Assembly: GCA_024734495.1 (NCBI GenBank)
Contig: JALMQS010000055.1
Span: 7,931,386-7,995,385, forward strand
Source of the DNA: Forficula auricularia
Lineage: Eukaryota; Arthropoda; Insecta; Dermaptera; Forficulidae
Direction: 5' to 3'
Length of the DNA: 64,000 nucleotides
Below are positions 1,884-64,000 of the stretch, piece by piece. The notes under the pieces are model-generated. The model had not been told where the DNA came from. It worked only from the letters and a program-made list of their open reading frames with translations, and searched no databases. Each line of letters starts with the position of its first letter. The stretch's first letter is position 1. Made by a program: the position numbers and the translations under genes.

Positions 1884-1915
1884 CAGAAGATGGGTTAATA
1901 ACCTGAAATATATAT
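1884..1915 (+). ncRNA. Hammerhead-like core, decayed
   Basis: CAGAAGA stands for CUGANGA, followed by T, a GGGTT/AACCT stem with loop AAT, then GAAA and an alternating AU run ending in C. It belongs to the same class as 34920-34955. The U at core position 4 is replaced by A, so cleavage is unlikely in this copy. Confidence 0.5.
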
Positions 1916-2423
1916 CGAGATAAAACTTTAAATATATTTATGTTGTTCGGTGATAAAGTTGAGGTACTAAGGCCTCCTGAGAACAGTTGGTGGCTGCTCT
2001 TGTAAATAAAAAATCTTTTTTCTAAGGAAATCATATTTGTTTATTGAAATTTGTAAAAAATTTTAATATAGTACTCTGCCATCTTCAGTGTAGAGAAACA
2101 CAGAAAAACGCTATGAGCAATTGTACAAGCTTTAATATAAAAGAAAGAGTAAATACAAAAATCTATTCATAAAGAAAATTCGAAACTGTGAAAAACATAA
2201 CAATTGAAAAGAATGAATTTCTCAATTCAAATGAAAAACACAAAATAAAAGAAAAGATTCAACAATTGTCAAGAGGTGAAGTTATAATTACCTCGTTTTT
2301 ACTGTTCCAAGTACTCTAAAAAATACCCTTCCATTTCAAGTACCACGTATTGAATATTAAATATATTTGTTTCATTTGGGAAACTAACTTTGTATAAATT
2401 GAATTGACTATTATTAAATAGGT

Positions 2424-2449
2424 AATGTTTCACCAAGAACCAACACCAC
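2424..2449 (-). repeat. Terminal box of ribozyme elements
   Basis: Reads GTGGTGTTGGTTCTTGGTG then AAACAT on the minus strand, the box shared with copies near 5997, 16131, 18213, 32700, 34699, 35974, 37472, 61766 and 63712. It is found at one end of elements whose boundaries are fixed by target duplications. Confidence 0.6.
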
Positions 2450-2755
2450 GTTCCCTAAACAATGATATAGTCTTGTTGTGATACTTATAGTAATAATAAT
2501 AATAAGTTGTCAATTCTTATTCTTTAAGAACCCTTTTCCGTCCTTTCGTCAATGAATTTGACAATGAATAGGAACATCGTATTTTATAAAACTCTAATTG
2601 GAAATTTCCTTTCCAAGTTTTGCACGAATTCTCGTAGAGATCATGTCCAAGAATAAGAGGTCTTTAATGATATTACTTGTTGCTTCCCTTTCCTCTCTTG
2701 AAGACCGCCCTTTCCCTTTTCTTCTATCCATATTATTTGTAATATTAGTATTTTC

Positions 2756-3010
2756 TTGAATGGAGAGAGTATCTGGCAGGTGTCATTATCGTGTGCACTG
2801 GCCGAAAGGTCAACCCGGGATTGTCGTGAATGGAATCCCAGTCCATGGGAAACGACGCTCTGTCTTGGCGGACGGGACGAGACGTCTTCGTCTTGGTCTT
2901 CGACTTCTTCATTCAACTCTCTTCTGGAAAGTTCATTCATTCAGCCAGCTGGGCATGAATGGCCGACCCTCGCGTCTTCTCAATCCCGAGAGTTGTACCT
3001 ACACAATTAA
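2756..3010. promoter_or_regulatory. GC-rich island, possible cis-regulatory module
   Basis: Base composition is clearly richer in GC than the surroundings. Overlapping ORFs run on both strands and none resembles a known family or is bounded by convincing splice sites, so coding is doubtful. It contains an AGGTCA half-site near 2806, a nuclear-receptor type motif. An unrecognised exon on the minus strand cannot be excluded. Confidence 0.25.
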
Positions 3011-3629
3011 CTTGAACAACTCGTACTCACGAAAAGAAACTAACCACAAAACTTGTTGCTTTTTGTTTCCAATAAAAGATACACGCAGAAGTTTTTAATC
3101 AACAGACAAGCAAGTTAAGCTCTCCTCCTCTCCTTGTCCGTTACTTTTGCATTCAAAGGTAAAAAAAGGTTGAAAAGTACAGGATTATGGTTAGAACTAA
3201 TCTTAGTTAAGAGATTAATTTTTTCTTTTTTTGAAAGAATAATTCTGTCATAAAGAAAAATCAATGAGGATGCAAATAAACATGTACTTCAGTAAGGGGG
3301 GGGGGTGACATTTGAACCAGGGGATCCTGTCCAAAAAGAACCTTCAATTTTTAAAATTTTATTTTATTTTTTTGTTCCCTTTTCTAATATTCATCGATAA
3401 ACTCAGAATTTTTCGTTATTTTTCAAATTTAGCATTAGATTTTTGATAATAGTTACGGTATGAAAATACTCTTGACGTTTTGAAATTTCAGGGATGCACA
3501 TCATCTACAGCATCCATGAACCACACGCCACTGATGTACACATTTATAATAAATATATATAATTTACTTTTTAGATACGATTGTTTCGAAGGTTGACCCT
3601 CACATCAGACTTTTTTTTTAATTAAAAAT

Positions 3630-4570
3630 ATTTTGTCTAAAATTTGAATTTTTATTTAAATCACACATAACACAGGTCGACAAAAATTTGTACCTGTAGA
3701 CCTAACAATGGATTCCAGTAGAGTTTTATAAGTTTCATGCAATTTCTCGATTTTTTACAACAGGTCAGAGTTTCGAGATATTATCGGTCAAATTGACGGA
3801 AAACGCCATTTTGACCTATTTTCGAGTCTCATTAAATATTAAACAGCAATATTTGAAATCAAAATATTTTGTTGACGTAATAGAAAACAGTTTCCTCTTT
3901 GATTTTCAAATTACTACTTGATTTTAGATCAATTAGAACTCGAGTTATAACTAAAAAACTAAAACTACGTATAAAGGATAATAAACATAGATAAAAACAT
4001 ATGGTCTTGGTTATTTAGTTATATCGCGAGTTCTAACTGAGTTACAAACAAATGGAAATTTGAAAATCAAAGAGGAAACTGTTTTTTATTATGTCAACAA
4101 AATTTTGTGATTTCAAATATTGCTGTCTAATATCTAATAGAACTCGAAAATAGGTCAAAATGGCCTTTTTCTTGTTTATTATTATTATAACCTCTACAAA
4201 AGCAAACTTTTTTTTTTTTTTTTTTTTTTTTGGCTTTTCGGCCCTTCTAGCCATAAGCCTAATTACGATACTAGATATATATTTTTTTAAAATTTGTCTC
4301 TACCCCCGGGGGTCAGATTTTGGCTGGCTGCCTCGAGTCGGATTCGAACCCGGGTCTCCTGGTTAGCTCGCTGTCACGCTACCGACTAGCCTATCGACCC
4401 CCCACAAAAGCAAACTTTATATGGAATATAGGTATTTTTCCTTTATTTTGATGCACAATGAATAGAAGAATCATGAAATAAATCTTAGGACAAGGAAAAA
4501 AATTTTGTCGACATGTGTAATTAATTATAATTAATCATGTGTGATTTAAATAAAAATTCAAATTTTAATC
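3630..4570. mobile_element. Large foldback element, family F, copy 1
   Basis: Outer arms contain ATTTTTATTTAAATCACACA (about 3647) and its complement (about 4543). Inner arms near 3715-3915 and 4060-4165 are complementary in many blocks, including TCAAATATTGCTGTTTAAT-like and CAAAATGGCCTTTT-like sequence. The second copy is at 27003-27652. A SINE has inserted in the right arm. Superfamily unknown; no transposase seen. Confidence 0.65.
4211..4403 (-). mobile_element. tRNA-derived SINE, family S1, with target duplication
   Basis: On the minus strand the tRNA-like head has an A box (TAGTCGGTAGCG region) and a perfect B box GGTTCGAATCC. A body ending TGGCTAGAAGGGCCGAAAAG and a poly-A tail (poly-T at 4209-4230) follow. 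The element is flanked by ACAAAAGCAAACTT at 4196-4209 and 4404-4417, a 14-bp target duplication made by LINE machinery. A second full copy is at 35559-35728. Confidence 0.9.
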
Positions 4571-4736
4571 AAATTAAAACACAAAAATAAAAGCTTCAAT
4601 ATTTTGTCTGTTAATTCTCATTGACTAAAATACTCGATTAAAATTAGGTAAGTCTAGCAAAAAATTGAATTTTTCTTTATCCAATTATGTAAGTGAACCT
4701 ATGAAAAATAACAGATAAAATATCCTAATTAAAAGA

Positions 4737-4771
4737 CTGACGATGAAGATCAAGCCTTCGAAAATTTAGTC
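4737..4771 (+). ncRNA. Hammerhead-like core, ACUAUAGU class
   Basis: CUGACGA at 4737-4743, one T, stem II GAAG/CUUC (4745-4748 with 4756-4759), GAAA at 4760 and then AUUUAGUC in place of CUAUAGUC. It is followed 174 bp downstream by a second, more decayed core in the same orientation. Confidence 0.65.
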
Positions 4772-5106: not shown

Positions 5107-5627
5107 GAAAGTCTCATTTTTCATTTGAGTTATGTAAAAATAGCGCTTAATTCTTTCAAGTCCTAAAGGTAGGTGTATATAAATTTATTTTCTTTCGGAA
5201 ACTTGGCTGGGTGAATTTGTTGTCTTCGCCCTACAGATTTATTAATGGATTTCGCCCTCTCATTTGTTTCTCTTCACTGGCATTGTTTAATTAAACTCTT
5301 TTTATCTGGCAACTTTTGATCTCATAGATCACCCACCCAACCGCATACAAAGTGCTCGTTTTTTATTTTATGTTTTCTAGTTCTAGAAAATTTACATGAA
5401 AATCTGTTTGTTTTTTTGTTTTTTCACGCGATGTTTTATAATGATAAAATGAATCAAGAGAGATTTCTTTTAAATCAGTTTATAATAAGGCTAAGATTAA
5501 ACCTACATTATATATTTTCTACTATACTGAAGTATAGAGGTTTGATAGAGAGACAGCCCAAGGATAATGAAAAATACAAATTTCGAATAATGTATATTGG
5601 AACATCATTTTCATTATCCTAAAATCC

Positions 5628-5659
5628 GACGTTTCCGAAAAGCTCCCCTCCTTCTTCAG
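5628..5659 (-). ncRNA. Hammerhead-like core, ACGU class
   Basis: Minus-strand core: CUGAAGA (5653-5659), one A, a purine-rich stem II, then GAAACGUC (5628-5635). The self-complementary ACGU followed by C fits a dimeric hammerhead stem III and cleavage site. Confidence 0.65.
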
Positions 5660-5763
5660 GGTTTAGAAGGGTCAACGAATTACCAGAACGAACTTATTTT
5701 CTCCTTTAACAAGCACTGTTAAAAGAGACGATTACAAACCTCATTCGTTGACCCTTCTAAACC

Positions 5764-5795
5764 CTGAAGAAGGAGAGGAGTTTTCCGGAAACGTC
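5764..5795 (+). ncRNA. Hammerhead-like core, ACGU class
   Basis: CUGAAGA at 5764-5770, one A, weakened stem II (GGA/UCC), and GAAACGUC at 5788-5795. It is the mirror partner of the core at 5628-5659. Confidence 0.65.
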
Positions 5796-5996
5796 GAATT
5801 TTAGGATAATGAAAATGATGTTCCAATATACATTATTCGAAATTTGTATTTTTCATTATCCTTGGGCTGTCTCTCTATCAAACCTCTATTTGAAATTCTT
5901 TCCCTTCTCTAGAAGTCCCTCATACAATATTTGTCATTATCTGGAGGCAATACTCCAATTAATTTTGTGAAAAAATAACATAGTTTTTAAGAAATT

Positions 5997-8460: not shown

Positions 8461-8535
8461 GTTTAGTGAGTGGAAGGAGTCAATAAAGAGTGTGTCTTCT
8501 GCTGGAATTATAAATTTTTAATTTATTTATAACGA

Positions 8536-8567
8536 GACCATAGTTTCGAGAACTTTGCCCTCTTCAG
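8536..8567 (-). ncRNA. Hammerhead-like core, ACUAUAGU class
   Basis: Minus strand: CUGAAGA (8561-8567), shortened stem II, then GAAACUAUGGUC (8536-8547). One base is missing compared with its partner, so stem II is weakened. Confidence 0.65.
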
Positions 8568-8628
8568 ACCACATGTAAATCTCACTTCCAATACACAGTA
8601 CATTAATTCCTGTGAATCAATTGTCATA

Positions 8629-8663
8629 CTGATGAAGAGGGCAAAGCTCTCGAAACTATAGTC
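8629..8663 (+). ncRNA. Hammerhead-like core, ACUAUAGU class, intact
   Basis: CUGAUGA (8629-8635), one A, stem II GAGGG/CUCUC with loop CAAAG, then GAAACUAUAGUC (8652-8663). In this run ACU pairs AGU to give a minimal stem III, with C in the cleavage position. Confidence 0.8.
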
Positions 8664-9059
8664 TCGTTATAAAAATTTATAATTCCAGCAGAAGACACAC
8701 TCTTGTATTGTCTCCTTCAATTTATAAAAATTTTGCTACTCTCGGCAAAAAGAAACTTTCAATTAGTTTAGTGAGTACCTGAATGTTTTTAATTATAATG
8801 AAGGGTGTAATTGAAAATTTGCTTATTTCCAATAATAATTTTATTAATGTAACTTTTATGGCTTGATTCGTACTGGCTATGTTTATTTATAATGAAGGGT
8901 TCAATGAAGAGACCTGCGGCTTTTTACACTCTTTATATTAGCTTCGCCTCTATGTATGTATGTATCTATCTATCTATCAATGTGACATTTGTTCTGTTAA
9001 ATTCGGCAAACTTTTCTTTATAAAAATAATTAAGACTAAAAAGTAAAAAAATATATTAT

Positions 9060-9481: not shown

Positions 9482-9669
9482 AGCTAATACAAAATTGAAC
9501 ATATGGGATTAGATTAGTCTCATCTAAGTAACTATATTAATGCAATTAATAAATTAGTCTTTTATACTTATCAGGAATTTTTATAAAAAAATTTCTGTTT
9601 TTGGATACAGAAATCATCAATAAAATTATATACAAGAAATACACAGGATATGTCGTGGGCTTATTGCAA

Positions 9670-10225
9670 AAAGTCACTAAGTAAACTTTTGGTGGATTTT
9701 TATCTAGTAGTACTTAGTTGTGAGTTTCGATCATATTTATCGATATAAAAATACTTTAAAGGAATCAACATAACACAAACCCTATTAAACGTAAAAAACA
9801 ATTTCACTAACTGCACAATATTCTGATTTTATAGAGCGAATATATATGTGTGTGTAAAGTATTTTAGTCAATTGTGTGAGGTATGAAACATATTTATAAT
9901 TACAAAAAACAAAAGCTAAACAATTAAATTGCTACTTAAGTATTTTTAAAACTAATCGTAAGTTTGAAATTGGGTTATCTAAAATGTAAGAAAATTTTAG
10001 TTAATAACTTTTCCCAATAAGCCCACAATATATACAAAATTATATACAGGTTATTTATAAAAAGAATGTAATATTTTCAATAGAAATTTTTTTACTTTTT
10101 CAGTCTAAGACTTAATGCAAAATTCAAGAAATTTAAATACTAAAAAGCTGCACGTCTCTTCATTGAACCCTTGTTAAACAAAAAAATCACAGCTATAAGA
10201 AATTATAATGAAGGAAGAACACAAA
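9670..10225. other. No gene recognised
   Basis: AT-rich DNA; a stretch near 10022-10060 (ATATACAAAATTATATACAGG) resembles the flank of the ribozyme copies near 9630 and 63225, suggesting a scattered repeat. Confidence 0.35.
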
Positions 10226-10273: not shown

Positions 10274-10309
10274 CAAATATTTCGAGTCCCTACAGCACCT
10301 CTTCCTCAG
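10274..10309 (-). ncRNA. Hammerhead-like core, AAUAUU class
   Basis: Minus strand CUGAGGA (10303-10309), A, stem GAG/CUC, then GAAAUAUUUGG. The palindrome AAUAUU is shared with the pair at 38278-38310 and 38570-38606. Confidence 0.55.
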
Positions 10310-11475: not shown

Positions 11476-11898
11476 CGGTAAATATTGATGAAGCTCTATA
11501 ATACTCTGAGGTATATGAGTCAAACCATTGACTAGGATGTAGGATGGTTGTAGTTTTTATATTCTTAATTATTTTTACTGTTAATGTTCAATTAATATGA
11601 CCTTGCATGGTTTCTCTTCATGACAAATTTATATTCAAGTTCCTTGTTTTGTATTTACTTTATAGACTGATGATGACAAGGCATACTTGTCGAAACGTCT
11701 ACTTCTGGAAAAATATATAAGAACCAAAAACAGAAAAATTTCTTTCATTTCTTATGGGAGAAGTACCCTGTGCCAACCGACAACTACATCCTAGTCAATG
11801 GTTTGACTCATATACCTCAGAGTATTATAGAGCTTCATCAATATTTAATAACGAGCCCTTATCAGTTTACTACAATTTTGTTATACTGTAATAATAAA
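11476..11898. mobile_element. Complete ribozyme element, 423 bp, 11-bp duplication
   Basis: Flanked by TTGAGATACTA at 11465-11475 and 11899-11909. Arms 11482-11551 and 11783-11850 are nearly perfectly complementary (for example GAAGCTCTATAATACTCTGA). A single intact hammerhead-like core lies between them at 11667-11699. No ORF. Confidence 0.8.
11667..11699 (+). ncRNA. Hammerhead-like core, ACGU class, intact
   Basis: CUGAUGA (11667-11673), one T, a perfect six-pair stem II GACAAG/CUUGUC with loop GCAUA, then GAAACGUC (11692-11699). This is among the best-preserved cores in the window. Confidence 0.85.
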
Positions 11899-14690: not shown

Positions 14691-15908
14691 AAGTATTATT
14701 TTTTGGTTAGCTTTATATTTCCTTTTTTCAAGTAACTACTATATTTTTCCAAATTCCATTGATAAAAGGAGAATTTCGCCCATTGGCGGAACTACAATAC
14801 TGCACGACCCCGCAAACGCAAGGGGTCCCAAAGTCGTAAGGTGTCCAAATTTTTTGGATTTATTATTTTTTAATTTTACTAAAATTCTCTTTAATCTAAA
14901 TTTGAATAAAAATACACCGAAAAAAACCATTTGCTATCGTAATAATAGTTATATATGCCACAGTATCTGAAGATCAAGTTATGCAGATGTTACCATTATC
15001 ACGAGTCTGTTTTAATTTTTAATTTTACCAATTAGCGTGTCAACAATTTAATTGTGTAGATACAACTCTCGGCAAAAAATATCTCACTCTTTTCATTGTA
15101 TAGTATAGAGCAGCGATTCTTAATAGGGGGGCCGCAAAAATATTAGAATTTTTTAAGTTTTTATATCTTTAGAAAAAAATAAATAAAAATAAAAAAAATA
15201 TGTTACTAGTTTTTATAAGTGATACATATTTAAGTAACAGATGAATTTATTGACATTTCAATATTGTTAAACTAAATGAAACCGTTGGGCGCATTCGACC
15301 CAAACAGACAGACAGACAAAATTACAAGTTGAATAAAACCGTGTAAATATTTTCTATAAATCTATGTTTTTACAATTTTTATACTATAGCAAATATACTT
15401 TCATTTCCAAATATACATATTTTTCAAGAAATATGTTATTTCTGACAATCTGATAAAGCATTTTTGTTCATTGCATTTCGCATCTGTGCGACACATTGCC
15501 ATTAATATTTGAAGTGTTAGTTCGTTTACTGGAACTGAAAACGGAAGTTGAAATATTTCTAAATGATAAAAAATAAAATTTGACCATTTATTTCAACGAC
15601 AGAAATTGGATTGCAAAACTTTCTTAATTGGCAGATATCTTCACCATTCTAAACCAACTAAATTTATCTCTGCAAGGAAATCAACACAATATTTTTTCCA
15701 TTCGAGATAAAATAGAGGCGATGAAAATAAAAGGTCGTACGTACATGAATTCGAAGAATAGAATCGAATGTTTTTCGAAATGTTTCCAAATTATTCTCAA
15801 ATGATTACACTTCATTGTGAATTTGATAAAGAACATACATATTATTTAATTCAATTAATAAGTTGTTGTAGGGAAATAAGGACAATAGCTTATGCAAATA
15901 TTTTTTAT

Positions 15909-16169
15909 AATAATAAAACTTGAGCAAGATGCGAGTAGGTTTCACAAAAAAAGAAATAAAACAAAATTGAGTTTTGAATTCGATATATTTCGGAGGTGAG
16001 CGTGAGCCCATCATCAGGAGTCAAAGAAACTCACCCCGAAATATATCGAATTCAAAACTCAATTTTATTTTATTTCTTTTTTGTGAAACCTACCTTTCAT
16101 CTTGCTCAAGTTTTATTATTATATTAAAATGTTTCACCTAGAACCAACACCTAACTCCTTAAAAGTTAT
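15909..16169. mobile_element. Ribozyme element A1, 261 bp, 13-bp duplication
   Basis: Flanked by AAATATTTTTTAT at 15896-15908 and 16170-16182; the uninterrupted site is visible in the opposite arm of B1 (about 16503-16530), which proves the insertion. Arms contain GTAGGTTTCACAAAAAAAG and GAATTCGATATATTTCGG. The right end carries the box ATGTTTCACCTAGAACC then AACACC. Copies A2 (37249-37518) and A3 (32662-32737) share both termini. Confidence 0.9.
15982..16017 (-). ncRNA. Hammerhead-like core, AUAUAU class
   Basis: Minus strand CUGAUGA (16011-16017), one U, a GGG-initiated stem II, then GAAAUAUAUC (15982-15991). The mirror arm keeps GAAAUAUAUC but has lost CUGANGA. Confidence 0.65.
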
Positions 16170-16190
16170 AAATATTTTTTATTTTATGCC

Positions 16191-16221
16191 AACGTTTCGT
16201 CAACTTTGTTGACTTCATCAG
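16191..16221 (-). ncRNA. Hammerhead-like core, ACGU class, intact
   Basis: Minus strand CUGAUGA (16215-16221), A, perfect stem II GUCAAC/GUUGAC with loop AAA, then GAAACGUU (16191-16198). Confidence 0.85.
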
Positions 16222-16467
16222 GGCTCTAAAATATTTTTAGATTTAAATAGGAAATATTTTTAATCTGTGCCTATATGTGTTTGCTAAGAATGAATATTTA
16301 TAAAATGACAAATATGCAAAGAAGTTAATTTGTTTGGTAGGTAAAATGAGTTTTTTGTGTGTGTTGAATTGTTTTTGTATGTACTGAGGTGGTTTGAGAT
16401 CAAAGCTTGTTTTTGATTTGAAATTGTTATAACATGTACTAATTGAGGCCTTTCATTTTTTAGAGCC

Positions 16468-16498
16468 CTGAGGAAGTCAACAAAGTTGACGAAACGTT
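16468..16498 (+). ncRNA. Hammerhead-like core, ACGU class, intact
   Basis: CUGAGGA (16468-16474), A, the same perfect six-pair stem II as its mirror partner, then GAAACGUU (16491-16498). Differs from the partner only at the tolerant core position 7. Confidence 0.85.
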
Positions 16499-17621
16499 GG
16501 CATAAAATAAAAAATATTTGCATAAGCTATTGTCCTTATTTCCCTACAACAACTTATTAATTTAATCGATGGACATAAATAATCAAAATAATTTAATTCA
16601 ATGTAATCTCCAAAAATTAATTGAAAAATTTCCAAATAATGAAATTGATAGCAGAAAATTGCGGATTCGAGATCCCTATAATAACTGGGATAATACCAAT
16701 TTATCACCAACCCACGATGACACTGATTGAATTGATCAAGGATTTAGGTTTGAATTCACTTTTCAAGAAAAAATGTTTGGTACATTCTAGTATTTGCTTT
16801 TTGATTTATTTATGAATTATTGTTACATTTGAGTGTTTTTTTGTTGTACGAGTAATTACGAGTATGTCACCTAATGGGGGGGGGGTACTGGCCGCGAAAA
16901 TATTTTAGGATTTTAAGGGGGCCGTGAATATACTTTCGGATTTTAACGGGACCGCGACTAATAAAAGGTTAAGAACCACTGGTATAGATGATGTTTTCTA
17001 TTTGCCCTGAGCTGGTTTGTCTACTAAATAAGTATTCTACTCTTCCGAAATATTCATGCTCGAGATGTCGCACGCATCTTCTTTCATCGGCCCGTAAAGT
17101 GTTAATGGCCACGGGCAGAACACCCTCCTCTGACCCTCTCCCACCTGTTCAAATGTTCAACTTTTTAAGGAAATAGCACGGAAATCATTCACTCATCTAC
17201 GCTGGTGGATAATGTTTAACCAGCTCAATTATTGTTCCACTCACATGGAGGTATTGTGATAATACACGCTACGATGTACAATTTGTAACAATAGGTAATC
17301 TTTTACTCAGGAGTACGCTAGTCAAGTAAAGACTAATTTTTTTTTGCTCATTATATAAAAAAATGTCTGGGTCGTGGAGAAAAACAATATTCGCCATAAT
17401 TATTTCTGTCTGTGTGTCTAGATGTGTGTTTGGATTCAGATACCCAAGATAATTTAATAACTATACGTCGTAGAGAGTACTTTCTTGTGCTAAAATGTTT
17501 ATATTTCCAATGTGGAGAATTAATTAGATTATGAGCTTTCTAGTTCCAGATCTTTCGGTTAAAATAGCAGAGGACAATCTCTTTGATTTCCCTTTATGAA
17601 ACATTTTCGTTAAACTTAAGA

Positions 17622-18531: not shown

Positions 18532-18706
18532 GGTTCGGTTAATATATATTCAGTTCGGCTCGGTTGAGTTCGTATAGCTCCTTTTCGGGCTGGTTTTTAG
18601 ACGGTTCGGTTGGGTTGGGTTGACGCCAACCGAACCGTCTAAAACCAGCCCGAAAAGGAGCTATACGAACCCAACCGAGCCGAACTGAATATATATTAAC
18701 CGAACC
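18532..18706. repeat. Near-perfect 82-bp hairpin rich in GGTTCGG
   Basis: Arms 18532-18613 and 18625-18706 are complementary with very few mismatches around an 11-bp loop. The sequence is much richer in GC than its surroundings. A shorter GGTTCGGTT-containing hairpin is at 45882-45935. The near identity suggests recent origin or repair-maintained symmetry. Confidence 0.75.
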
Positions 18707-20023: not shown

Positions 20024-20172
20024 GGGCCGGTTGTATGTCGCAAAGTAAATGCTTTTTACCACTAACAAACGGTAGAGGGTAAGTCATCTGATTGGCCATC
20101 CCAGCGGCTCCATTTACCATCTACCGTTTGTTAGTGGTAAAAAGCATTTACTTTGCGACATACAACCGGCCC
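20024..20172. mobile_element. PIF/Harbinger-type MITE, 149 bp
   Basis: Ends are GGGCCGGTTGTATGTCGC in inverted orientation with arms of about 55 bp. TAA flanks both sides (20021-20023, 20173-20175), the 3-bp TWA duplication of PIF/Harbinger elements. The empty site survives in the opposite arm of the host palindrome (about 21030). Confidence 0.85.
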
Positions 20173-20248
20173 TAAGTAAATATCAAGTGAACACTAATGT
20201 ATTTTTAGTATTTTATTGTGTATGGAGTTAATGGGTTGACAATGTACC

Positions 20249-20281
20249 TACATGTTGTTTCGCCGAAGACGACATCATCAG
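20249..20281 (-). ncRNA. Hammerhead-like core, ACAUGU class
   Basis: Minus strand CUGAUGA (20275-20281), U, stem II GUCG/CGGC with UCUU tetraloop, GAAAC, then AACAUGUAGG, whose ACAUGU is self-complementary. Confidence 0.7.
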
Positions 20282-20926
20282 CTGGATTATTAAACTCATT
20301 AATAAATTTTCAATTATTTTTCGACTAATTATTAATATTTAGAAATATAATATGAAGAAAAATTATCAAGCATAATTTTTTGGGTGTATGTTTGTGTGTG
20401 TGTCTGAATTCTAATATCCATGGTAGTTCAAGAACGAAGGATCGTGGAAAACTGATGCCATAATGTTTGTATTTTAAAAATAATTAGGAACCTCTTTAAT
20501 GGATCTAAAAAAATAATTAAAATTCGGTACATTGGCTTTCTAGAAACACATCGTTGTGTAAATTCTCAGCATTCTAAGATAAATCAATCGATAGTAGGTA
20601 CATACATTATATTATAACAAAGAAAATGTGAAAACCAAACAGCGCTATCAACTAGTTGCATCAAATAAATATTTCAATTACAAATGAATAAATACAAAGA
20701 TATATATATATATATATATATATATGTATAATAGACTCGCAAAAATATTTTTGAAACAAAAAATCAGATAAACCTTACAAAACTGCAACACCAGTCACTG
20801 GCATAGTTTACGCCTTGTTTCTATTGAGTTTGTTGGCCAATTATTGTACTTTTAAAAAGAAATGTTTTTTGTTTTTATATTTAATTTGGATACTAATTGC
20901 CGGCTTTACAGAATAATCTTTGAGTG

Positions 20927-20957
20927 CTGATGATGCCTTCTTTGACGAAACAAGATG
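20927..20957 (+). ncRNA. Hammerhead-like core, ACAUGU class
   Basis: CUGAUGA (20927-20933), U, a weakened stem II starting GCC and ending GAC, then GAAAC. Mirror partner of 20249-20281. Confidence 0.6.
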
Positions 20958-21226
20958 TACATTGTCCACCCATTAACTGCATGCACAATAAAATACTATA
21001 ATTACATAAGTGTTTACTTGATATTTACTTAGAACCTCCAAATTTTTACCACAAAAATATTCTAGTATGAATAAATAACGGAACAACTGTTCAGCACCCT
21101 GTATGAAGGGTTTTCTACTTGGTAGATATTAATTTTATAATAAAGTAAAATATTTAATATTCTTTAGGTAGGTTTATATTGAAAATTAGATTGTGGACAA
21201 TAATAAATTTTATTTAGCCTTGCACC

Positions 21227-21260
21227 AACGTTTTGGACCCTTAATGGTATCCTTGTTCAG
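21227..21260 (-). ncRNA. Hammerhead-like core, decayed
   Basis: Minus strand CUGAACA, A, stem GGAUacc/GGGUCC, AAAACGUU. Two catalytic positions (G8 and G12) are altered. Confidence 0.45.
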
Positions 21261-21460
21261 TGGAGAGGATAACTACTAAATATTAGAACTTTCAACACAT
21301 TTTCATCATTTAATTTGAACGTAACATATTTACAATTTTTCAAGGCATTCCAATGCTTAAATTTTGTAATAGTCAAGTGGAATTAGAATGGCTTGGAAAA
21401 TTGCAAATATGTTAAAATTAAATGATCAAAATTTGTTGGAAGTTTTACATAGCTTCTGCT

Positions 21461-21494
21461 CTGAAGAAAGATATCATTGAGGATGTAAAACTTT
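21461..21494 (+). ncRNA. Hammerhead-like core, decayed
   Basis: CUGAAGA is intact (21461-21467), but stem II is weak and GAAAC has become AAAAC. Mirror partner of 21227-21260. Confidence 0.45.
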
Positions 21495-21584
21495 GGCGGA
21501 AGGCTAAATAAAATATATTACATCGAGATATTAACTACGATTTTATTTTCTATATATATATATATATATAATATATAAATATCG

Positions 21585-21863: not shown

Positions 21864-22068
21864 AGTAGAATATAAAAGAGTGTGTCTTCTGCTGGAAAAA
21901 TAAATTTTGAAATTATTTATAACGAGACTATAGTTTCGAGAGCTTTGCCCTCTTCGTCAGTCTATTACAATTGATTCACAGGAATTTTTCCAGCAGAAGA
22001 CACACTCTTTTTTTGTCTCCTTCAATTTATAAAAATTCTGCTACTCTCGTCAAAAAGAAACTTTGAAT
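21864..22068. mobile_element. Complete ribozyme element C2, 15-bp duplication
   Basis: Flanked by TTAACAAAATATTTA at 21849-21863 and 22069-22083. Shares AGAGTGTGTCTTCTGCTGG, the core and the CTACTCTCGTCAAAAAG end with C1 (8472-8765). The second ribozyme copy is deleted. Confidence 0.85.
21926..21960 (-). ncRNA. Hammerhead-like core, ACUAUAGU class, intact
   Basis: Minus strand CUGACGA (21954-21960), A, stem II GAGGG/CUCUC with loop CAAAG, then GAAACUAUAGUC (21926-21937). Confidence 0.8.
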
Positions 22069-25228: not shown

Positions 25229-25230
25229 CT

Positions 25231-41013: not shown

Positions 41014-41092
41014 TTAAAATTTGAATTTTTATTTAAATCACACATAATTAATTATAATTATGTGTGTTTTAAATAAAAATTCAAATTTTAAT
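41014..41092. repeat. Solo palindrome of family F outer ends
   Basis: TAAAATTTGAATTTTTATTT and its complement surround an ATAATTAATTATAATTAT centre. The same arm sequence bounds the foldback at 3630-4570, suggesting a deletion product. Confidence 0.6.
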
Positions 41093-41659: not shown

Positions 41660-42873
41660 TCTATATATATAAAATTAAGGTTTTGTCTGTACATTGGTCC
41701 AAATCACGCCAAATTTTAGTTGCACACGTTTCAAGCAAAGTTATGAACGAAAACACCCTCAACAAAATTCCTGTCTGTATGTCTGTCTGTTTCAGTGGTT
41801 TCCGCGAAAAGTTGCTCACGATTCACGTCAAAACGGCTGAAGGGATTATTATGAAATTTCATATTTGTATCAGAGGTCTTCTAACTTACGTTTTTAGCTA
41901 TATAACGTTTTGATATTTTGACCCCAAAAGGGGGTTTGGGGGGGTGCACGAATGAAAATTATCAAATAACTCTTAAACTATTAACTCTACGGGAAATTTT
42001 ATAATGAGCAAAGTTGTAGGGGATGTGATTTCTGACAACTTTTGTTTAAAAAATTCCCCCAAAAACCACCCAAAAAGGGGGGAAGGAGAAAAATATATAA
42101 ATTCTTGCCCTTGGAGCAAACTCAACCAAATTTTGTATACATAATCTGTAGGCCTCTAGAGAGCTAGAAATGCAAAAACTAACCACCCAAAATGGGGGGC
42201 GTCCCAAAATAGGGGGGGTCAAAAATGAAAATTCTTGCTCTTGGACCAAACTCAACCAAATTTTGTTTACATAATCTGTGGGTCACTAGAAGGCTAGAAA
42301 TGCAAAAACTGGGTGCGGGGGTGGAGTGGGGGTGGGTTAGGGCATGGGATGCGCGGAGTGGAATGGCGGTGGAGTGAGGGAGTATGGCGGAGTAGGGGGG
42401 GGTGCAAGGTTGGTGGATGGGGGGTTCAGGTGAGGGTCCAGTGGCGTAGTGGGGTGGTACGGGGTGGGGGTCCGAGGTGGGGGTGCAGGTTAGAGTGTTG
42501 AAGTGGTGGTGTGGGGGCGGGGGTTGGGGTGCTGGGTGGGTTTCGTGGAGTGTGGTGGGTTGGAGTGGGGGTGAGGTTGGGGTTCGTGGGTTGGGGGCCC
42601 GAGGTGGGTGGGGTGAGGGTTGGGGTGGTGGTGTGGGGGCGGGGGTTGGGGTGCTGGGTGGGTTTCGGGGAGTGTGGTGGGTTGGAGTGGGGGGTGAGGT
42701 TTGGGTTCTGTGGTATGGGGGCGGGGGTTGGGCACGGGTTCATGGTGCGGGGGTAGGGGTGCTGGATGGGTCGGGGGGGGAGTGTAGTGTGAGGGTGGGA
42801 TTCGTGGGTTGGGGTCCAGGGGCGTGCCCCCTGGCTAGCAAGAGGGCCGCCGAAGGCGGAGCCTTGCAGCTAG
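41660..42873 (+). mobile_element. Complete non-autonomous Helitron, 1.2 kb
   Basis: Begins TCTATATATATAAAATTAAG after an A, and ends with a CCGCCGAAGGCGG hairpin, GCAG and CTAG before a T. These are the Helitron hallmarks: TC start, 3-prime hairpin, CTRR end, insertion between A and T. No Rep/helicase ORF. It contains related internal repeats and a long G-rich array. Confidence 0.85.
42310..42815 (+). repeat. G-rich minisatellite inside the Helitron
   Basis: Repeated GGGGGCGGGGGTTGGGGTGC, GGTGGGTTGGAGTGGGG and related words over 500 bp with strong strand asymmetry. Open frames on both strands here (about 42313-42884 and 42426-42743) are translations of the repeat, not genes. Confidence 0.8.
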
Positions 42874-46640: not shown

Positions 46641-46689
46641 AATCGAACCGTCCAAACTGTACTTACTTTAAAAACATGCCTCGTATTAA

Positions 46690-47350
46690 ATGAAGTTTGG
46701 ACCGCCCTGTATATTCATATTTTCATAGTAAATGAATTTTCGACCACCCTGTTTATTCATATTTTTATAGTAAATGAATTTTCGACTACCCTGAAAATTC
46801 ATATTTTATATAGTAAATGAATTTTTAGACCACCCTGGATATTCATATTTTTAAAATAAAATAAAGTTTGGACCACCCTGTATATTCATATTTTTAAAGT
46901 AAATGAATTTTTTACCACCCTGGATATTCATAATTTTAAAGTAAATGAATTTTTAGACCACCCTGTATATTCATATTATGTCATAGTAAATGAATTTTCG
47001 ACCACCTCGGATATTCATATTTTTATAGTAAATGAATTTTCGACCACCCTGAAAATTCATATTTTTATAGTAAATGAATTTTTAGACCACCCTGGATATT
47101 CATATTTTTATAGTAAATGAATTTTTAAACCCTCCTGTATATTCATATTTTTAAAGTAAATAAAGTTTGGACCACCCTGTATATTCATATTTTTAAAGTA
47201 AATGAATTTTTTACCACCCTGGATATTCATAATTTTAAAGTAAATGAATTTTTAGACCACCCTGTATATTCATATTTTTATAGTAAATGAATTTTCGACC
47301 ACCTCGGATATTCATATTTTTTATATTAAATGAAGTTTGGACCACCCTGT
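46690..47350 (+). repeat. Minisatellite built from mariner terminal repeats
   Basis: About 15 units of roughly 43 bp read GACCACCCTGTATATTCATA then TTTTTATAGTAAATGAATTTT. The reverse of the unit head, TATACAGGGTGGTCCAAAC, is a mariner-type terminal repeat. The outermost units keep the fuller GTTTGGACC, inner ones diverge. Confidence 0.85.
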
Positions 47351-47936
47351 ATAGTATAATGTTAATTATAATATGTAATCAATTAATTGAATAAACAGTT
47401 AGGACAAGAGAAAGTATGTTTTAGGATACTACAAAGTACCTATATGACGTTTGTCTTACCTTTGGCTGGCTGGCTGGCTATCGAGAAGCCCTTCTACCTA
47501 ATAATATACTGAGCTTTCAATGAAAGGAAGGAGACCAGCCAGCTTTTTATCAATTTTCTTGAATTTCGATATATAATTTTTCAAGGGAATTTTCCAATAA
47601 ACATTTCTATTAATTTTTTTATGAATTAAATGAAATATAATGTACTCATAGGTGATGGACCAAAACATTAGGGACGTAATCAGAATTTTTTTGGGGGGAG
47701 GGTGCCCGATTGTATTTATATATTTATTTTGAAAATAAAACTAATTTCAATAATCTTGATAACTCAAAAATAAAAAATGGTAGAAAGTTCATTATGGTGT
47801 CAAAATTTGTGTAATTCTAAATCAATAACTGATAATATTTTGAGTTTTCTATTTTGAAAATTTTTCGGGCAAAAGTGCAAAAAAGTATTTATAATAAAAT
47901 AATAAATAAAATCGTAAAAGCTCTTTCTATATCTAC

Positions 47937-50589: not shown

Positions 50590-50985
50590 TCGCAGTAAAA
50601 ACCCGTTTTTAGTAAGAACGGATTCTTACTAGTTAAAACGAGTTTCGCTGAATACCTTTGTGACAACTAGAGTTTACTGATGTTGTTTGAGTTTGGTTCA
50701 AAGGTCCAGAATCTTCATTTTTGACCTCCTGCCTCATTTTGGGTGTTTATTTTCAAAATTCTTTAAACGAAAATGTCAAAAATTAGAAGCAAAGTTGTAG
50801 AGGATGTAATTTTTGACATTTTCGTTGAAAATAAACAGTCGAAAATGAGGCAGGAGGTCAAAAATGAAGATTCTAGGCCTTTGAACCAAACTCAACCAAT
50901 CAGTTAACTCTAGTTGCCACACAGGTATTCAGTGAAACGCGTTTTAACTAGTAAGAATAAGTTCTTATTAAAAACAACATATATA
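50590..50985. mobile_element. pogo-like foldback, family G, copy 2
   Basis: Mirror arms with CCGTTTTTAGTAAGAACGG, GCTGAATACC, CTAGAGTTTACTGATG and GAAAATGTCAAAAATTA. It is the uninterrupted counterpart of 36945-37610. Confidence 0.65.
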
Positions 50986-54110: not shown

Positions 54111-54130
54111 AATATTAAAATTAAACGAAA

Positions 54131-54505
54131 TTTTTTCTGGAGAGAGACGGACTGGTAGAAATTTTAATTGAATGTAATGGAAGGCAGTCCAGGGTAGTGA
54201 GGAAAGAAAGATTAACACATATCAAAAAAGATGTAATTTATTGGAATCCTTCCTCCTTCCTTTCAAACCAACGTTTCGGAGGATTCTTCTCTCCTGAAGA
54301 AGGATTATTGAATCCTTCTCCTCTTTTCAAACCGACGTTTCGGAGGATTCTTCCTCCCTGAAGAAGGAGAGGAAAATCCTCCGAAACGTCGGTTTGAAAG
54401 GAAAGGAGGAAGGATTCCAATAAATTACACCTTATTTGATATGTGTTAATTTTTTCTTTCCTCACTACCCCTGGGCTGCCCTCCATTACATTCAATTAAA
54501 ATTAA
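54131..54505. mobile_element. Palindromic ribozyme element D2
   Basis: Starts GAGAGAGACGGACTG as D1 does. Arms share GAAGGCAGTCC / GGGCTGCCCTCC, GATGTAATTTATTGGAATCC and ACACATATCAAA. The left arm contains a partial tandem duplication (CGTTTCGGAGGATTCTTC twice, 54270 and 54334). No firm target duplication. Confidence 0.75.
54358..54390 (+). ncRNA. Hammerhead-like core, ACGU class
   Basis: CUGAAGA (54358-54364), A, stem II GGAG/CUCC, GAAACGUC (54383-54390). The mirror GACGTTTC at 54333-54340 belongs to the opposite arm. Confidence 0.75.
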
Positions 54506-54544: not shown

Positions 54545-54690
54545 AACCAATATAAGAAAGAAAGAAGTTAATTTGTTTGAGCCCTGAGGAAGTCAAGAAA
54601 GTTGACGAAACGTTGGCAAAAAAAATTAAAATTTTTTGCATAAACTATTGTCCTTATTTTCCTACAACAACTTATTAATATAATATTAAT
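54545..54690 (+). mobile_element. Ribozyme element B, partial copy
   Basis: GAAGTTAATTTGTTTG, the core, GCATAAACTATTGTCCTTAT and CCTACAACAACTTATTAA match 16320-16335 joined to 16463-16560 of B1, so the first arm is deleted. Confidence 0.7.
54584..54614 (+). ncRNA. Hammerhead-like core, ACGU class, intact
   Basis: CUGAGGA (54584-54590), A, stem II GUCAA/UUGAC, GAAACGUU (54607-54614). Confidence 0.8.
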
Positions 54691-59428: not shown

Positions 59429-61330
59429 CTGGAAATCAATCATTTCAATCAATTGACTTTTCTCTCCAGAATCAAGCATTTTTTTTTGGGGGGGGGGGGT
59501 GAGGTTTAATAAAATAAAAAACACCTATTGAAATCATACATAATGATCGGGTCCAATTAGCCATACATAAACTTATGGTTTTATTATAATGAAGGAACAT
59601 GAAGAGATGTTTCTTAATGGAATGAAATATGAAGATTGCCTTTTTTCCTCATTACATCGAAGTAGAACATTAACTATAATATTAAATAAATATAATTTGA
59701 ATATCTACGAGGGAACTAATCAAATGGGGTAAGAGAATCAAGTTTAATTTAGATTTAATCATCTTTTCATTAGAGAGCTATTTATAAGCTAAATTGAAAT
59801 AATCCGCTAAAGGGAATAACTCTAATCCAAGTTTGTAATAATAAAAATCAATATAAAAATATTCTTAATTCCTTGTTAATTAATATTAATATATAAGTAT
59901 TCATTTAATAGTATCTGAAAGTTTTAATTTAATATAAACGAATGACATTTAAAAGCTAAAAAAAATTACCAATATAATCAAGCTCTCTAATTTATAACAA
60001 AAAATTTGGCGTGGCTCAAATACACTAGGTGATTTTACCACACCCTTGTCTCCTTTTGAGGTCAGCGGAAAAGTATTATTTAAAAATACTACTACTACCA
60101 ATAATTAAATATATAATTTATCTTTTGAGGGCCTATTTTTGTCCTAGTGCTATATTGAGTAACTTTTTTTCTCTTATTTGTCCCGCAGAGAGTAAATGTG
60201 CAAAATATTGTACAAATCATCTAAAGGTTTATATATTTTTATTTTTAGAATATTTATAATTCAAAAGATTGATAAAGCTTAAATCTTCGAAGTATACTCT
60301 CTATCAAATAATATATATTGGGAATTCCACACCAAATTGGACAGTTTGAAAAATTTTAATTTTTTGGAAACAAAAATTGGAACTTTTTTTCTATAAATAA
60401 TAGCTAAAAAGTTTTTAAAAATAATAAAAATTCTCAAGATCCCACAATCAAACCTGTCTTAAAAATTATTGTTAAATAGATAGAATAAGTTTTCAAAAGA
60501 ATAAAAAAATATACTCAGTTTCACAAAATTTATTTAAATTTTTAAACAAAAAATCGACTGTAACAACAATTATAATAATTTTTTAGTATTTTTTTCTGAA
60601 AAGTACACAAAAAACGAAAATTTTGAAGAAAAAAATGTGTCTTATTTGATCTATTTTTCAAGAAGTTATAGGCAAAGAAACCAAAAAAACTTTCTCATGA
60701 ACGGTTTGTCGAAAAAGTTTGAAAATTCACCTAGAAGCCTTTTTCATAAAGTACAAATAAATGTCAAGAAATCAAGAAACTCATAAATTTAAATTTTTCA
60801 AACTGTCCGATTTGATGTTGAATGCCTTATATATAACCAGAGTCCAAATTTAAGTAGTACTTTTATCCCTAGGCCCGAAATAGAACCGATTTAAAGCACT
60901 ATAACCTCGCCCTGCTCCTACATTGAACCCCCTGATCCTACGCTTTACTGTGAGATACTACTTTGAACCCCTAAGTCCGATATTAAAAATGAAGACCTAC
61001 TATTGTCTTCTTGAACCCCGCAATTCATTTATATTTATATTATTATCTATATTAATAAGAAATTTAAAAGGCTTGGAGCGTACCGGATATGTTAATTTTT
61101 TAAAGAGGATGAATGAAATTCAATTGCTTCTTTCCAGTAATTTTTATTTTTACACACAAGTGGTTTAACCAAATATTTCTTCAGTAGAAATTGCAGGACC
61201 AGAATAACAGTGAGTTATCGGGTTCATAGGGCTCATTTTATCTTATAATTACAGATGTTAAATTGTTAACATGGAATAATAATCTACTTTGAGCCCCCAA
61301 GTCCTAAATAAGAACTACCTTAGGAGGTAA
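59429..61330. other. Intron-like AT-rich DNA
   Basis: A poly-G tract lies at 59489-59502. Short ORFs (60029-60259, 60923-61168) are AT-driven. A few CTTTGAACCCC-like words recur near 60920-61020 and 61290. Confidence 0.4.
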
Positions 61331-61339
61331 TTGAAAAGT

Positions 61340-61740
61340 TTTTGTTTTGCCAAGAGTAGCAGAGTTGTTGATTCACAAAGAGAAACAAAGAGGTTGTCCT
61401 CTGTTTGATACAAATAAACATACACACATATATATCGAGATGATGTATCTGTATTTATATTATTTATTTGTTTGAGACTATAGTTATATATTTATACTTC
61501 TAGAAGTTCTAAGCTGACCACCAGTGAAGAAGGGACACCAAATTTTCAATATCCATACGATATTGACTCCATGAAAAACATTTATAATTAAAAAAAGACT
61601 GATGATGAAGACCAAGTCTTCGAAACTATAGTCTCAAACAAATAAATAATATATATACAGATATATCATCTCGATATATATGTGTGTATGTTTATTTGCA
61701 TTAAGCAGAGGACAACCTCTTTGTTTCTCTTTGTGGACCT
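61340..61740. mobile_element. Palindromic ribozyme element, ACUAUAGU class
   Basis: Arms 61380-61490 and 61625-61736 are complementary: AGAGGTTGTCCTCTG, ATACACACATATATATCGAG, TTTGTTTGAGACTATAG. The core in the right half is intact; the left is decayed. GCCAAGAGTAGCAG at 61350 is the reversed CTCTCGGCAA-type box. Confidence 0.75.
61599..61633 (+). ncRNA. Hammerhead-like core, ACUAUAGU class, intact
   Basis: CUGAUGA (61599-61605), U, perfect six-pair stem II GAAGAC/GUCUUC with loop CAA, GAAACUAUAGUC (61622-61633). It is one of the best candidates for activity. Confidence 0.85.
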
Positions 61741-61756
61741 TGGGAGGTAGTTAATA

Positions 61757-62396: not shown

Positions 62397-63054
62397 ACAC
62401 GTAAATATGGATTGGGGGCTGAGCAAATACATTTTTTTTTATTTAATGATCCCTGATAGAGACAGAGAGGGGAATGTTCCGTTGCGGACTCAACTTTAGA
62501 TATCCACTCGAATAAACAATAATAATTCAAGTTTTATGTAGCCATCAACATGGCTAAACTATACTTCATCCCTCTCCCTTCGTCCCCTCTTTTCATTAAA
62601 GAATTGATTAATAAAATTGAGGATTGAATGGAAGGCGGTTAAAGAATAAATATAAAATTCGAGTGTGTGCTTAAGACAACACGACAGAAGTGAGGGCATT
62701 TACAATTTTCTTCTATTCTAAAATTATTAAAATTTATTTTGTTATAAATATATAAATTTAATAATTTTATTATTTTTTGAAATATATTTTCAGACAATGA
62801 TTGAACTGGCACTAGACCACATCTCAATCGTGACCCGAGACGTGACGCGTCACGCCACCCGTGATGATGATTATATAAGATATTAATTTGAGCTTAGAGC
62901 TAATGCTGCAGCGCCATATGTGGCTTGAATTGGTACCAACCGTGACGCTTGAGAACCCTTACAGCGTGGCGCGTGACGGCTCAATCCCATTTACTGCCAA
63001 GATAAATAAAAAGTGTGCAAGGCGCGCCAAAAGAAGTTATCAGTTCAATAAAAT

Positions 63055-63252
63055 TTTATTATATTTAACAAGGGTTCAATAAAGAGTCATACAGCTTTAG
63101 ATAGTTCTTATATTTAAAAATTCACTCTGACGTTTCGGGTATTGGTTATAGTCATCTTCGGAGTGGGAATCTGTCAATATTTATAAAAAATTTTAGATAA
63201 CCAATTCATCAAAAAAATAATATATACAAGATATATACAGGATATTTATAAA
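63055..63252. mobile_element. Ribozyme element interrupted by another
   Basis: Contains the core at 63129-63161 and the sequence TATACAAGATATATACAGGA, related to 9380-9660. It continues after the insertion 63253-63611, at 63624 onward. Confidence 0.55.
63129..63161 (-). ncRNA. Hammerhead-like core, ACGU class, decayed
   Basis: Minus strand CCGAAGA, U, stem GACUAU/AUACCC around AACCA (ancestral GGGUAU/AUACCC inferred), GAAACGUC (63129-63136). Confidence 0.55.
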
Positions 63253-63348
63253 TATGATTATCATTTCCGTCCATAATTTGTATTAATTTGAAAGTGGAAA
63301 TAGTAAAATAAGGACAAGTTTTATGTGTGACTTTTTTATTTATCAGTC

Positions 63349-63379
63349 AACGTTTCGGCGACTTTGCCGACTTCTTCAG
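63349..63379 (-). ncRNA. Hammerhead-like core, ACGU class
   Basis: Minus strand CUGAAGA (63373-63379), A, stem GUCGGC/GUCGCC (one mismatch) with loop AAA, GAAACGUU (63349-63356). Confidence 0.75.
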
Positions 63380-63518
63380 GGTTTCAAATAGTCTAGCCAC
63401 ACATTCTTCTAAATTTTCTTTTTATTTCCGTTACCATTGAAGACCATCAGAAACTTCTTCAACAGTAACGGTGATAAAAGAAAATTTAGAAGAATGTGTG
63501 GCTAGACTATTTGAAGCA

Positions 63519-63548
63519 CTGAAGAAGTCGGCAAAGTCAACAAAACGT
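63519..63548 (+). ncRNA. Hammerhead-like core, decayed
   Basis: CUGAAGA (63519-63525), A, GUCGGC/GUCAAC, then AAAACGUU in place of GAAACGUU. Mirror partner of 63349-63379. Confidence 0.6.
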
Positions 63549-63704
63549 TGGCTGATAAATAAAAAATCAAACATAAAAACTTGTCCTTATTTTCTATTTT
63601 AACTTTCAAAAGATATTTATAAAAAAGAAGAATCTCTATTTATTATAATCGGCTTGCGCGACGAAGCTGTCGTGATTTTTTTAATTTTAAAACCCACTAA
63701 TACT

Positions 63705-64000
63705 TTTGTTAAGAATGGTCTAGGTTCTTGGTGAAACATATTTAAATAAAGTAAAGAAAATTTAAAAAATAAAATTCTAGGTAGGTTTTCACAAAAAATA
63801 AAAGACAAGATGCTTGTTAGTATGACTCTATATATATATTTCGGGGTATGAGCCCATCTTCAGGAATTCACAGAGAAAATCTCATCACAAATAAGCCAAT
63901 AGAAATAAAGAAAAATCCTCTCAAACCCATAGTGTTCCATGAATAAAGTAAAGAAAATTTAAAAATTTTTAAAAACTTTTAAAATTTATAAATATAAAAT
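63705..64000 (+). mobile_element. Ribozyme element running off the window
   Basis: Terminal-box relative GGTCTAGGTTCTTGGTG then AAACAT (63717-63740), an arm GGTAGGTTTTCACAAAAAAT, and a core at 63829-63863. The second arm lies beyond the window end. Confidence 0.6.
63829..63863 (-). ncRNA. Hammerhead-like core, AU-repeat class
   Basis: Minus strand CUGAAGA (63857-63863), U, stem II GGG/CCC with loop CUCAUAC, then GAAAUAUAUAUAU. Confidence 0.7.

Follow-up and report, generated by a model that had tools for sequence, protein, structure and literature searches.

What are the thirty or so hammerhead-like ribozyme cores that lie within one 64-kb stretch of insect DNA, and what kind of element carries them? 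The stretch, called the window throughout, comprises 64,000 nucleotides of Forficula auricularia (assembly GCA_024734495.1, contig JALMQS010000055.1, positions 7,931,386–7,995,385), and we examined it together with the 1.06-Gb genome (845 contigs) to which it belongs. A first-pass annotation made from the letters alone had counted about 30 cores, read the compensatory changes in their stem II as support for RNA function, and named Penelope-like elements (PLEs) and retrozymes as known carriers of hammerheads. Our answer, to which we give a probability of roughly 0.87, is that we are dealing with minimal type I hammerheads situated in the pseudo-long terminal repeats (pseudo-LTRs, pLTRs) of GIY-YIG PLEs, and that two thirds of the cores sit in short non-autonomous insertions built from two pseudo-LTR copies placed head to head. 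A pseudo-LTR is the stretch from the end of one coding frame to the start of the next.

The cores were counted in several ways. The motif CTGANGA by itself matches 50 times (mean 17.3, maximum 30, in dinucleotide shuffles), and followed by GAAA at a distance of 8–34 nucleotides it matches 28 times on the two strands (mean 3.6, maximum 9, in 100 dinucleotide shuffles). A strict scan for the core plus a stem II of at least four contiguous pairs, four of them Watson-Crick, finds 13 cores, against a mean of 0.12 and a maximum of 1 in 200 shuffles. A covariance model trained on nine window cores recovers 33 at E ≤ 0.61, of which 24 had played no part in the training. The earlier figure of about 30 is fair, and the six cores that the first-pass annotation singled out all lie where it placed them. 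Thirteen cores are well preserved and the remainder degenerate, and some of the loosest are probably chance matches; the candidate at 48498 has no covariance-model match at E ≤ 10, that at 35280 matches only at E 8.1 and that at 59385 only at E 2.5. By our own grouping the window holds about eight or nine clades. Repeated copies inflate the core counts, so that comparison between clades is what matters; many cores are the two arms of one insertion, and the number of families is less remarkable than had been claimed.

Self-comparison of the window delimits 15 inverted-repeat blocks containing 22 of the 33 cores (E22 counted), and all 22 face outward. Target duplications were sought blind at the block ends, with 112 pairings as the null. 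Nine of the 15 blocks are flanked by exact duplications of 11–15 bp and a tenth by one of 13 bp with one mismatch; no null pairing (0/112) has an exact duplication of at least 11 bp, the best null score being 9. Among inverted repeats that lack a core, which served as a control, 2 of 29 score at least 11 (0/13 in a first set, 2/16 in a second). All ten blocks with a duplication are unequal in the same manner: exactly one arm extends ~31–51 nt beyond the other, forming a tail. Four tails contain an ATG start (MFHLEPTPNSLK in Y, MFPLAPTPQYLL in E34, MDINNQN in X and MDGNDNH in E63; block coordinates are given below), and the E8 tail resembles that of E61 (INNSATLGKTKTFQL).

The start motif ATGTTTCMCC has eight matches in the window, seven of which continue alike; the match at 57980 was dropped, the rest of the peptide being absent. 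Between these seven MFH-type starts, 21–35 of the 36 bases from the ATG are identical, exceeding the preceding 36 bases in 20 of 21 comparisons. Codon-position counts over the seven stretches (48/76/70) show no third-position excess and do not indicate coding. MFH-type starts at 2425(+), 18236(−) and 61787(−) have no core in the 190 bases upstream and are remnants of further PLE leaders.

The genome holds 1,946 exact copies (976 + 970) of a 29-mer from the X core, with 0 for the reversed control, and 16,280 copies of the MFH start motif, with 0 for its control; the window therefore samples a genome-wide population and is not exceptional. Among 100 places listed, a hand count finds 17 of 18 X-core pairs within 2 kb to be head to head. 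Twenty X loci were fetched, 17 picked as head-to-head pairs and 3 not, and every one of the 20 contains such a pair. With a tail scored as full when the reference end lies at or past position 125 of 136, 17 loci have one full tail, 3 have none and no locus has two (L016, counted as untailed, has one arm that reaches 122). The duplication test covered 19 X loci, L018 being left out at a contig end. The score is at least 10 in 11/19 and at least 9 in 15/19, and the latter level is reached by 15 of 16 one-tailed loci versus none of the 3 untailed. The spacer between the arms measures 73–1892 nt in 19 loci.

The cores are also found in coding PLEs of this genome, and of the two hosts suggested earlier it is the PLEs that held, retrozymes not being needed. 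A GIY-YIG search of the genome returned 3,423 candidates; 150 were scored, and all 150 match. Nine loci were fetched, with frames of 686–864 residues or in tandem. In all nine (13 measurements) a core lies 183–198 nt past the end of the open frame, and at the four junctions measured a core lies 138–140 nt ahead of the open stop-to-stop frame. L059 is a tandem array with the classical PLE layout: 858-residue stop-to-stop frames stand 2.9 kb apart, each junction bears a core of the 61599 type, and one inverted core lies beyond the tandem frames. The L059 frame begins INNSATLGKTKTFQL, has its first ATG at residue 32, and contains YVDD and GIY-YIG motifs; its reverse transcriptase (RT) region gives matches to solved enzymes of this type (best E 2.7e-7). 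The window insertion E61 is 92.6% identical to the L059 pseudo-LTR over 61505–61735 and 94.9% identical over 61485–61328, and its tail corresponds to the first 15 residues of the L059 frame, upstream of that frame's first ATG. The E61 clade thus presents the mark of endonuclease-bearing (EN+) PLEs, a frame with RT and GIY-YIG tied to the same terminal sequence. L059 adds the tandem copies that give pseudo-LTRs, with the optional inverted pLTR, and the window adds target duplications with a tail at one end, both likewise marks of PLEs.

A further 30 GIY-YIG loci were examined for cores: 22 have one on the same strand and one (L049) on the opposite strand only, and none was found within ~1.5 kb in the other seven (L029, L030, L033, L034, L043, L047 and L050). 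L044 has a core of the E8/E22 type 483 nt downstream of its GIY-YIG motif on the same strand. Compensated stem II variants occur as well, GAGUGC/GCACUC downstream of the GIY-YIG on the same strand in L055 and GAGGAC/GUCCUC on the opposite strand in L049, and six loci, L031 among them, hold a further clade (GCUGC...) beside a different GIY-YIG. We infer from the shared architecture that the remaining clades also derive from PLEs. Cores of other clades adjoin coding PLEs of the E61 family at L060 7880(+), L058 3095(+), L053 843(+), L064 5162(−) and L042 2531(+); these are neighbouring or nested insertions. Within the window, the 26 frame-segments scanned out of 30 contain no RT or GIY-YIG match.

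The layout of the putative ribozyme reads, at 61599–61633, CUGAUGA-U-GAAGAC/GUCUUC-GAAA-CUAUAG-UC. The stem at 8629 is GAGGGC/GCUCUC, six pairs with one G-U, and that at 34920 is GGGUU/AGCCC, also with one G-U. The compensatory variation of stem II reported earlier is borne out. Among the nine cores of the training set both sides had changed in 14 cells, and the covariation score, 0.727 versus 0.340, is matched by 0 of 500 shuffles. In nine hand-picked clade representatives, 34 of 36 of the outer four pairs are formed, against 21.0 after permutation (0/20000). Both tests used cores partly selected for pairing, the strict-scan shuffles being the control free of selection. Exactly one extra nucleotide stands after A9, ahead of stem II, in 13/13 strict cores and in 105/105 cores that have five or more pairs in stem II, taken from the window and the fetched loci, a count that allowed 0 or 1 nucleotide and in which the cases are not all independent, as the loci partly overlap.

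Stem I, with its register set by the palindrome that follows GAAA, is paired in 79 of 125 cells over 25 cores against 60.5 permuted (0/5000), a contrast inflated by relatedness; eight clade representatives give 26/40 against 18.0 (44/5000). The cores at 34880 and 34920 were excluded here, the end of their palindrome being ambiguous, and a single fixed register was abandoned, stem I being weak in the L and V clades. A stem III helix was not found: most cores have in its place a short palindrome (ACGU, ACUAUAGU, AUAU or longer AU runs). On this layout we class the cores as putative minimal type I hammerheads with stem III reduced to a palindrome. On folding, isolated monomers gave the stem I plus stem II shape in two of six cases (16468 and 38570), the others yielding different or partial folds, and cofolding or monomer-dimer folding of eight cores did not specifically produce a dimeric hammerhead and did not discriminate. 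Of the pairs only E34 was folded: its single transcript collapses into one long hairpin in which both cores are buried, and inserted head-to-head pairs are therefore probably poor ribozymes.

Several results weigh against our reading. First, the published models do not see these cores: the Rfam hammerhead models give no match in the window at gathering thresholds or at E ≤ 10, nor on two 101-base pieces. This was the first of two outcomes that the first-pass annotation had named as speaking against its proposal. We read the failure as a limit of the published models, because a palindrome replaces stem III in most cores and the core has an extra nucleotide. In addition, the clades of 61599/8629 and of 11667 have a weak stem I, with 1–2 pairs beside the core, although coding copies retain the same sequence. 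Second, the pairs are not uniform. Only 7 of the 15 blocks have a covariance-model match on both arms (E5, E8, X, E20, E34, E37 and E63), the other eight having it on one arm with the second truncated or degenerate. Eleven of the 33 cores lie outside recognised pairs (37678, 54584, 4737, 13431, 12213, 4912, 3608, 10309, 63863, 9481 and 58177). Third, the duplications are not always present or specific. The blind search gave no clear duplication at five of the 15 blocks (E5, E20, E21, E37 and E38), and the core-less repeat 9648–10033 is flanked by an exact 13-bp repeat. Another core-less repeat, 36927–37622, has an 11-bp repeat located inside its arms. Three of the 20 genomic X loci lack a full tail, and the null for these loci is high (52/342 pairings score at least 9 and 26/342 at least 10) because their flanks are AT-rich. 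Lastly, among the GIY-YIG loci examined no coding PLE could be linked to the M, G, T, V and U clades, and none to the X core in its exact form.

How the pairs arise can be approached from E8 and E22, two insertions of one family. Their duplications, the arm that is truncated and the point of truncation all differ, so the inverted pair was made anew at each insertion and not copied from a palindromic master. We infer a mechanism of two-ended priming, and with it dimeric cleavage and a purpose for the ribozyme. The PLE protein would cut the two target strands ~11–15 bp apart, and each target 3′ end would prime reverse transcription of the leader RNA. One priming would start further downstream in the RNA, giving the tail, and the other just upstream of it; the two cDNAs, independently truncated at their far ends, would then be joined in the middle. 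Many arms hold the ribozyme core or bases that precede it, and their templates had therefore apparently not been cut by that ribozyme. Arms that start at the ribozyme cleavage site were looked for and not seen; arms long enough to reach the ribozyme have their inner ends ahead of the core or within it, and n11 and one arm of E22 stop downstream of the ribozyme. In E8, E20, E25, E37, E54, E61 and Y at least one arm terminates in the hammerhead core or at its border, a pattern that frequent stalling of reverse transcription at this point might produce. Cleavage, if any, would be expected in the dimer, where the palindromes could form stem III; the partners could be cores of tandem PLE units or could meet in trans. 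Such cleavage would serve to process array transcripts, not to create the insertion template. The tandem coding arrays, with their cores in direct order, are the likelier site of such dimeric cleavage. We propose tentatively, at less than even odds, that head-to-head pairs form a major and regular class among the non-autonomous insertions of PLEs, that each results from two coordinated primings at a single target, only one of which reads the tail, and that they are the source of most dispersed minimal hammerheads of animals. In the same proposal the ribozyme would be retained chiefly as a structured element that serves recognition or the processing of arrays, because the inserted copies derive from uncleaved templates.

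A competing account of the joining step weighs against ours and survives best of the alternatives. The inverted pairs could result from self-priming of a folded-back antisense template instead of priming from the two target ends, as was put forward for Penelope of Adineta vaga in the available text of PMC3846280. The two arms of each window pair are near-identical by substitution, and from their divergence 8.6 intact duplications are expected where 9/15 are observed. This agreement would fit both arms having been copied from one template, and a separate source RNA for each arm is not supported. Fold-back alone, on the other hand, predicts neither the single tail at an outer end, next to the duplication, nor the spacers of 73–1892 nt in the 19 loci. 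Purified PLE protein moreover cuts and extends both target strands, and reverse transcription begins inside the RNA at two adjacent sites, according to the accessible portion of PMC11167929. We consider self-priming possible, though somewhat unlikely, and retain priming from both target ends as the most economical account.

Metazoan retrozymes, which are non-coding, tandem elements with circular RNAs and type I hammerheads mobilised by PLEs, share the type I core and the short size, and they are thought to employ PLE machinery (PMC7761336, in the part available). What was found here are inverted pairs, rather than direct tandem repeats of 150–300 bp each with a hammerhead. A tandem-repeat scan shows no 150–300-bp arrays around the cores, the sole array touching a core being a two-copy repeat of 64 bp at 54238–54368, and the 61599 core sits in coding PLEs; we hold this origin to be very unlikely. 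Miniature inverted-repeat transposable elements (MITEs) of a cut-and-paste DNA transposon, in whose inverted ends a hairpin motif happens to sit, would likewise be short, palindromic, non-coding, abundant and flanked by duplications. Yet the duplications vary in length from 11 to 15 bp, the ends are unequal with a tail on one only, and E8 and E22 were truncated independently at their 5′ ends. For E61 the MITE reading is refuted, because this insertion matches the pLTR of a PLE and the match takes in the beginning of the coding frame. Other tails hold ATG starts common to several families, and we give the MITE reading scarcely any weight overall. Chance hairpins in AT-rich repeats with no ribozyme, a notion favoured by the missing Rfam match and the weak stem I of two clades, are the least credible of all and as chance are refuted by 13 strict cores versus 0.12 expected, by covariation and by the coding PLE context, catalytic silence being possible.

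Minimal hammerheads of PLEs were reportedly described by Cervera and De la Pena in 2014 and by Lunse, Weinberg and Breaker in 2017. Like those, the present cores are of type I, have a reduced stem III and lie in PLE pseudo-LTRs; here the well-paired cores have the extra nucleotide after A9, and two thirds of the window copies are arranged head to head. Thousands of such motifs occur in animal genomes, mostly dispersed and non-coding and some in PLE pLTRs, with a role described as unknown in the available part of PMC7761336. Penelope of Adineta vaga, in the accessible text of PMC3846280, likewise has head-to-head inverted pLTRs, palindromic junctions, a frame start within the pLTR and a tail of 31 bp that one inverted pLTR may carry. 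Its duplications are 8–10 bp, versus 11–15 bp here, the same portion of text does not contain the word 'hammerhead', and the window copies are leader pairs without a coding frame. Poseidon PAc of Anolis, to judge from the available sections of PMC11167929, shares an open frame with RT and GIY-YIG, a hammerhead near the frame start and AT-rich targets; its frame starts at stem II, whereas our cores lie 138–140 nt before the open frame. In the same sections, unprocessed PAc RNA serves as template in vitro and insertion needs no ribozyme cleavage. An unpaired nucleotide after A9 is also present in the (+) hammerhead of chrysanthemum chlorotic mottle viroid (CChMVd), a viroid and thus unlike the PLE cores here (PMC3705267, available part). 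Metazoan retrozymes resemble our copies as short non-autonomous retroelements with type I hammerheads (PMC7229834 and PMC7761336, parts available) but consist of direct repeats with circular RNAs (PMC7229834), not inverted pLTR pairs. Scans of viral contigs with three patterns gave 0 matches.

Earlier publications thus cover minimal PLE hammerheads and how abundant they are, as well as inverted pLTRs bearing a tail. The present analysis links dispersed minimal hammerheads to head-to-head pLTR insertions in one genome, and adds the count of tails per pair, the invariant extra nucleotide and the apparently uncleaved templates. In the literature searched, the primary PLE hammerhead papers aside, we found no description of hammerhead-bearing head-to-head pLTR insertions. 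Two thirds of the dispersed window copies can be assigned to one insertion type with readable ends, in a hammerhead group that the Rfam hammerhead models overlook. The question of the ribozyme's role becomes testable: which RNA ends prime, whether ribozyme cleavage precedes insertion, and why the tail is on a single arm instead of both.

The individual insertions are as follows. E61 (61330–61736) belongs to the PLE family whose frame has 858 residues; it has its hammerhead at 61599–61633(+) in the right arm and the tail encoding INNSATLGKTKTFQL in the left; its 13-bp duplication (61317–61329 and 61737–61749, one mismatch) is weak taken alone, 16 of 112 null pairings scoring equally. E8 (8472–8765) has cores at 8567(−) and 8629(+), the tail on the right arm and an exact 11-bp duplication (8461/8766), and its relative E22 (21864–22068) has a core at 21960(−), a right-arm tail, a different 5′ truncation and an exact 15-bp duplication (21849/22069). 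In n11 (11476–11898) the core is at 11667(+), the 64-bp arms are 100% identical, the tail is on the right arm and the exact duplication has 11 bp (11465/11899). X (15856–16590) has cores at 16221(−) and 16468(+), a right-arm tail (MDINNQN...) and an exact 12-bp duplication (15844/16591). It is interrupted by Y (15909–16169), nested within it, with a core at 16017(−), a right-arm tail (MFHLEPTPNSLKV) and its own exact 13-bp duplication (15896/16170), separate from that of X. Four insertions have the tail on the left arm. E25 (25087–25330) has a degenerate core at 25231(+) and an exact 12-bp duplication (25075/25331); E34 (34684–35069) has cores at 34880(−) and 34920(+), a tail with MFPLAPTPQYLLI and an exact 14-bp duplication (34670/35070). 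E54 (54126–54494) has a core at 54358(+) and an exact 12-bp duplication (54114/54495), and E63 (63253–63611) has cores at 63379(−) and 63519(+), a tail with MDGNDNH and an exact 12-bp duplication (63241/63612).

Five further blocks came out of the duplication search without a result. E37 (37247–37507, right end approximate) has cores at 37351(−) and 37365(+), 13 bp apart, and a MFHLEPTPNSLK start at 37477; E5 (5534–5889) has cores at 5659(−) and 5764(+); E20 (20172–21032) has cores at 20281(−) and 20927(+), its arms beginning 1 nt before C3; E38 (38257–38626) has a core at 38570(+); and E21 (21201–21520) is a doubtful palindrome with a weak core at 21461(+) (E 0.61). Solo cores found by both the strict scan and the covariance model are located at 37678–37712(+), 54584–54619(+), of the X clade, and 4737–4771(+). 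The covariance model adds a solo core at 10277–10309(−) with stem I AUCCA/UGGAU. A single arm on the minus strand (63739–63863) runs from the core at 63863 to the start MFHQEPRPF at 63739, and any partner would lie beyond the window end.

The window also contains palindromes that lack a core. The repeat at 41013–41092 is flanked by a 14-bp repeat with one mismatch and has a 42-nt extension on one side; it and 9648–10033 are possibly PLE pairs truncated before the ribozyme. The repeat at 18532–18706 scores 10, inside its own arms. Long palindromes at 27014–27645, 32125–32589, 23595–24230, 50605–50975 and 3800–4169 have neither a hammerhead core nor a target duplication and are presumably other foldback elements. 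Several of the microRNA-like Rfam matches are long palindromes.

The window has some further features. An open frame of 191 residues at 33690–34262 has 226 relatives, those listed lying mostly on short metagenome contigs and several carrying PF00078; we take it to be a fragment of a non-LTR reverse transcriptase, and it was set aside as unrelated. A CENP-B N-terminal-like DNA-binding domain at 40440–40586 on the minus strand (coordinates computed by hand; E 0.0002, just over the cut-off) is probably a transposase remnant. A tandem array at 46687–47353 has a 42-bp unit in ~15.6 copies, whose consensus contains CCACCCTG, and a G-rich minisatellite with strong GC skew occupies 42557–42739.

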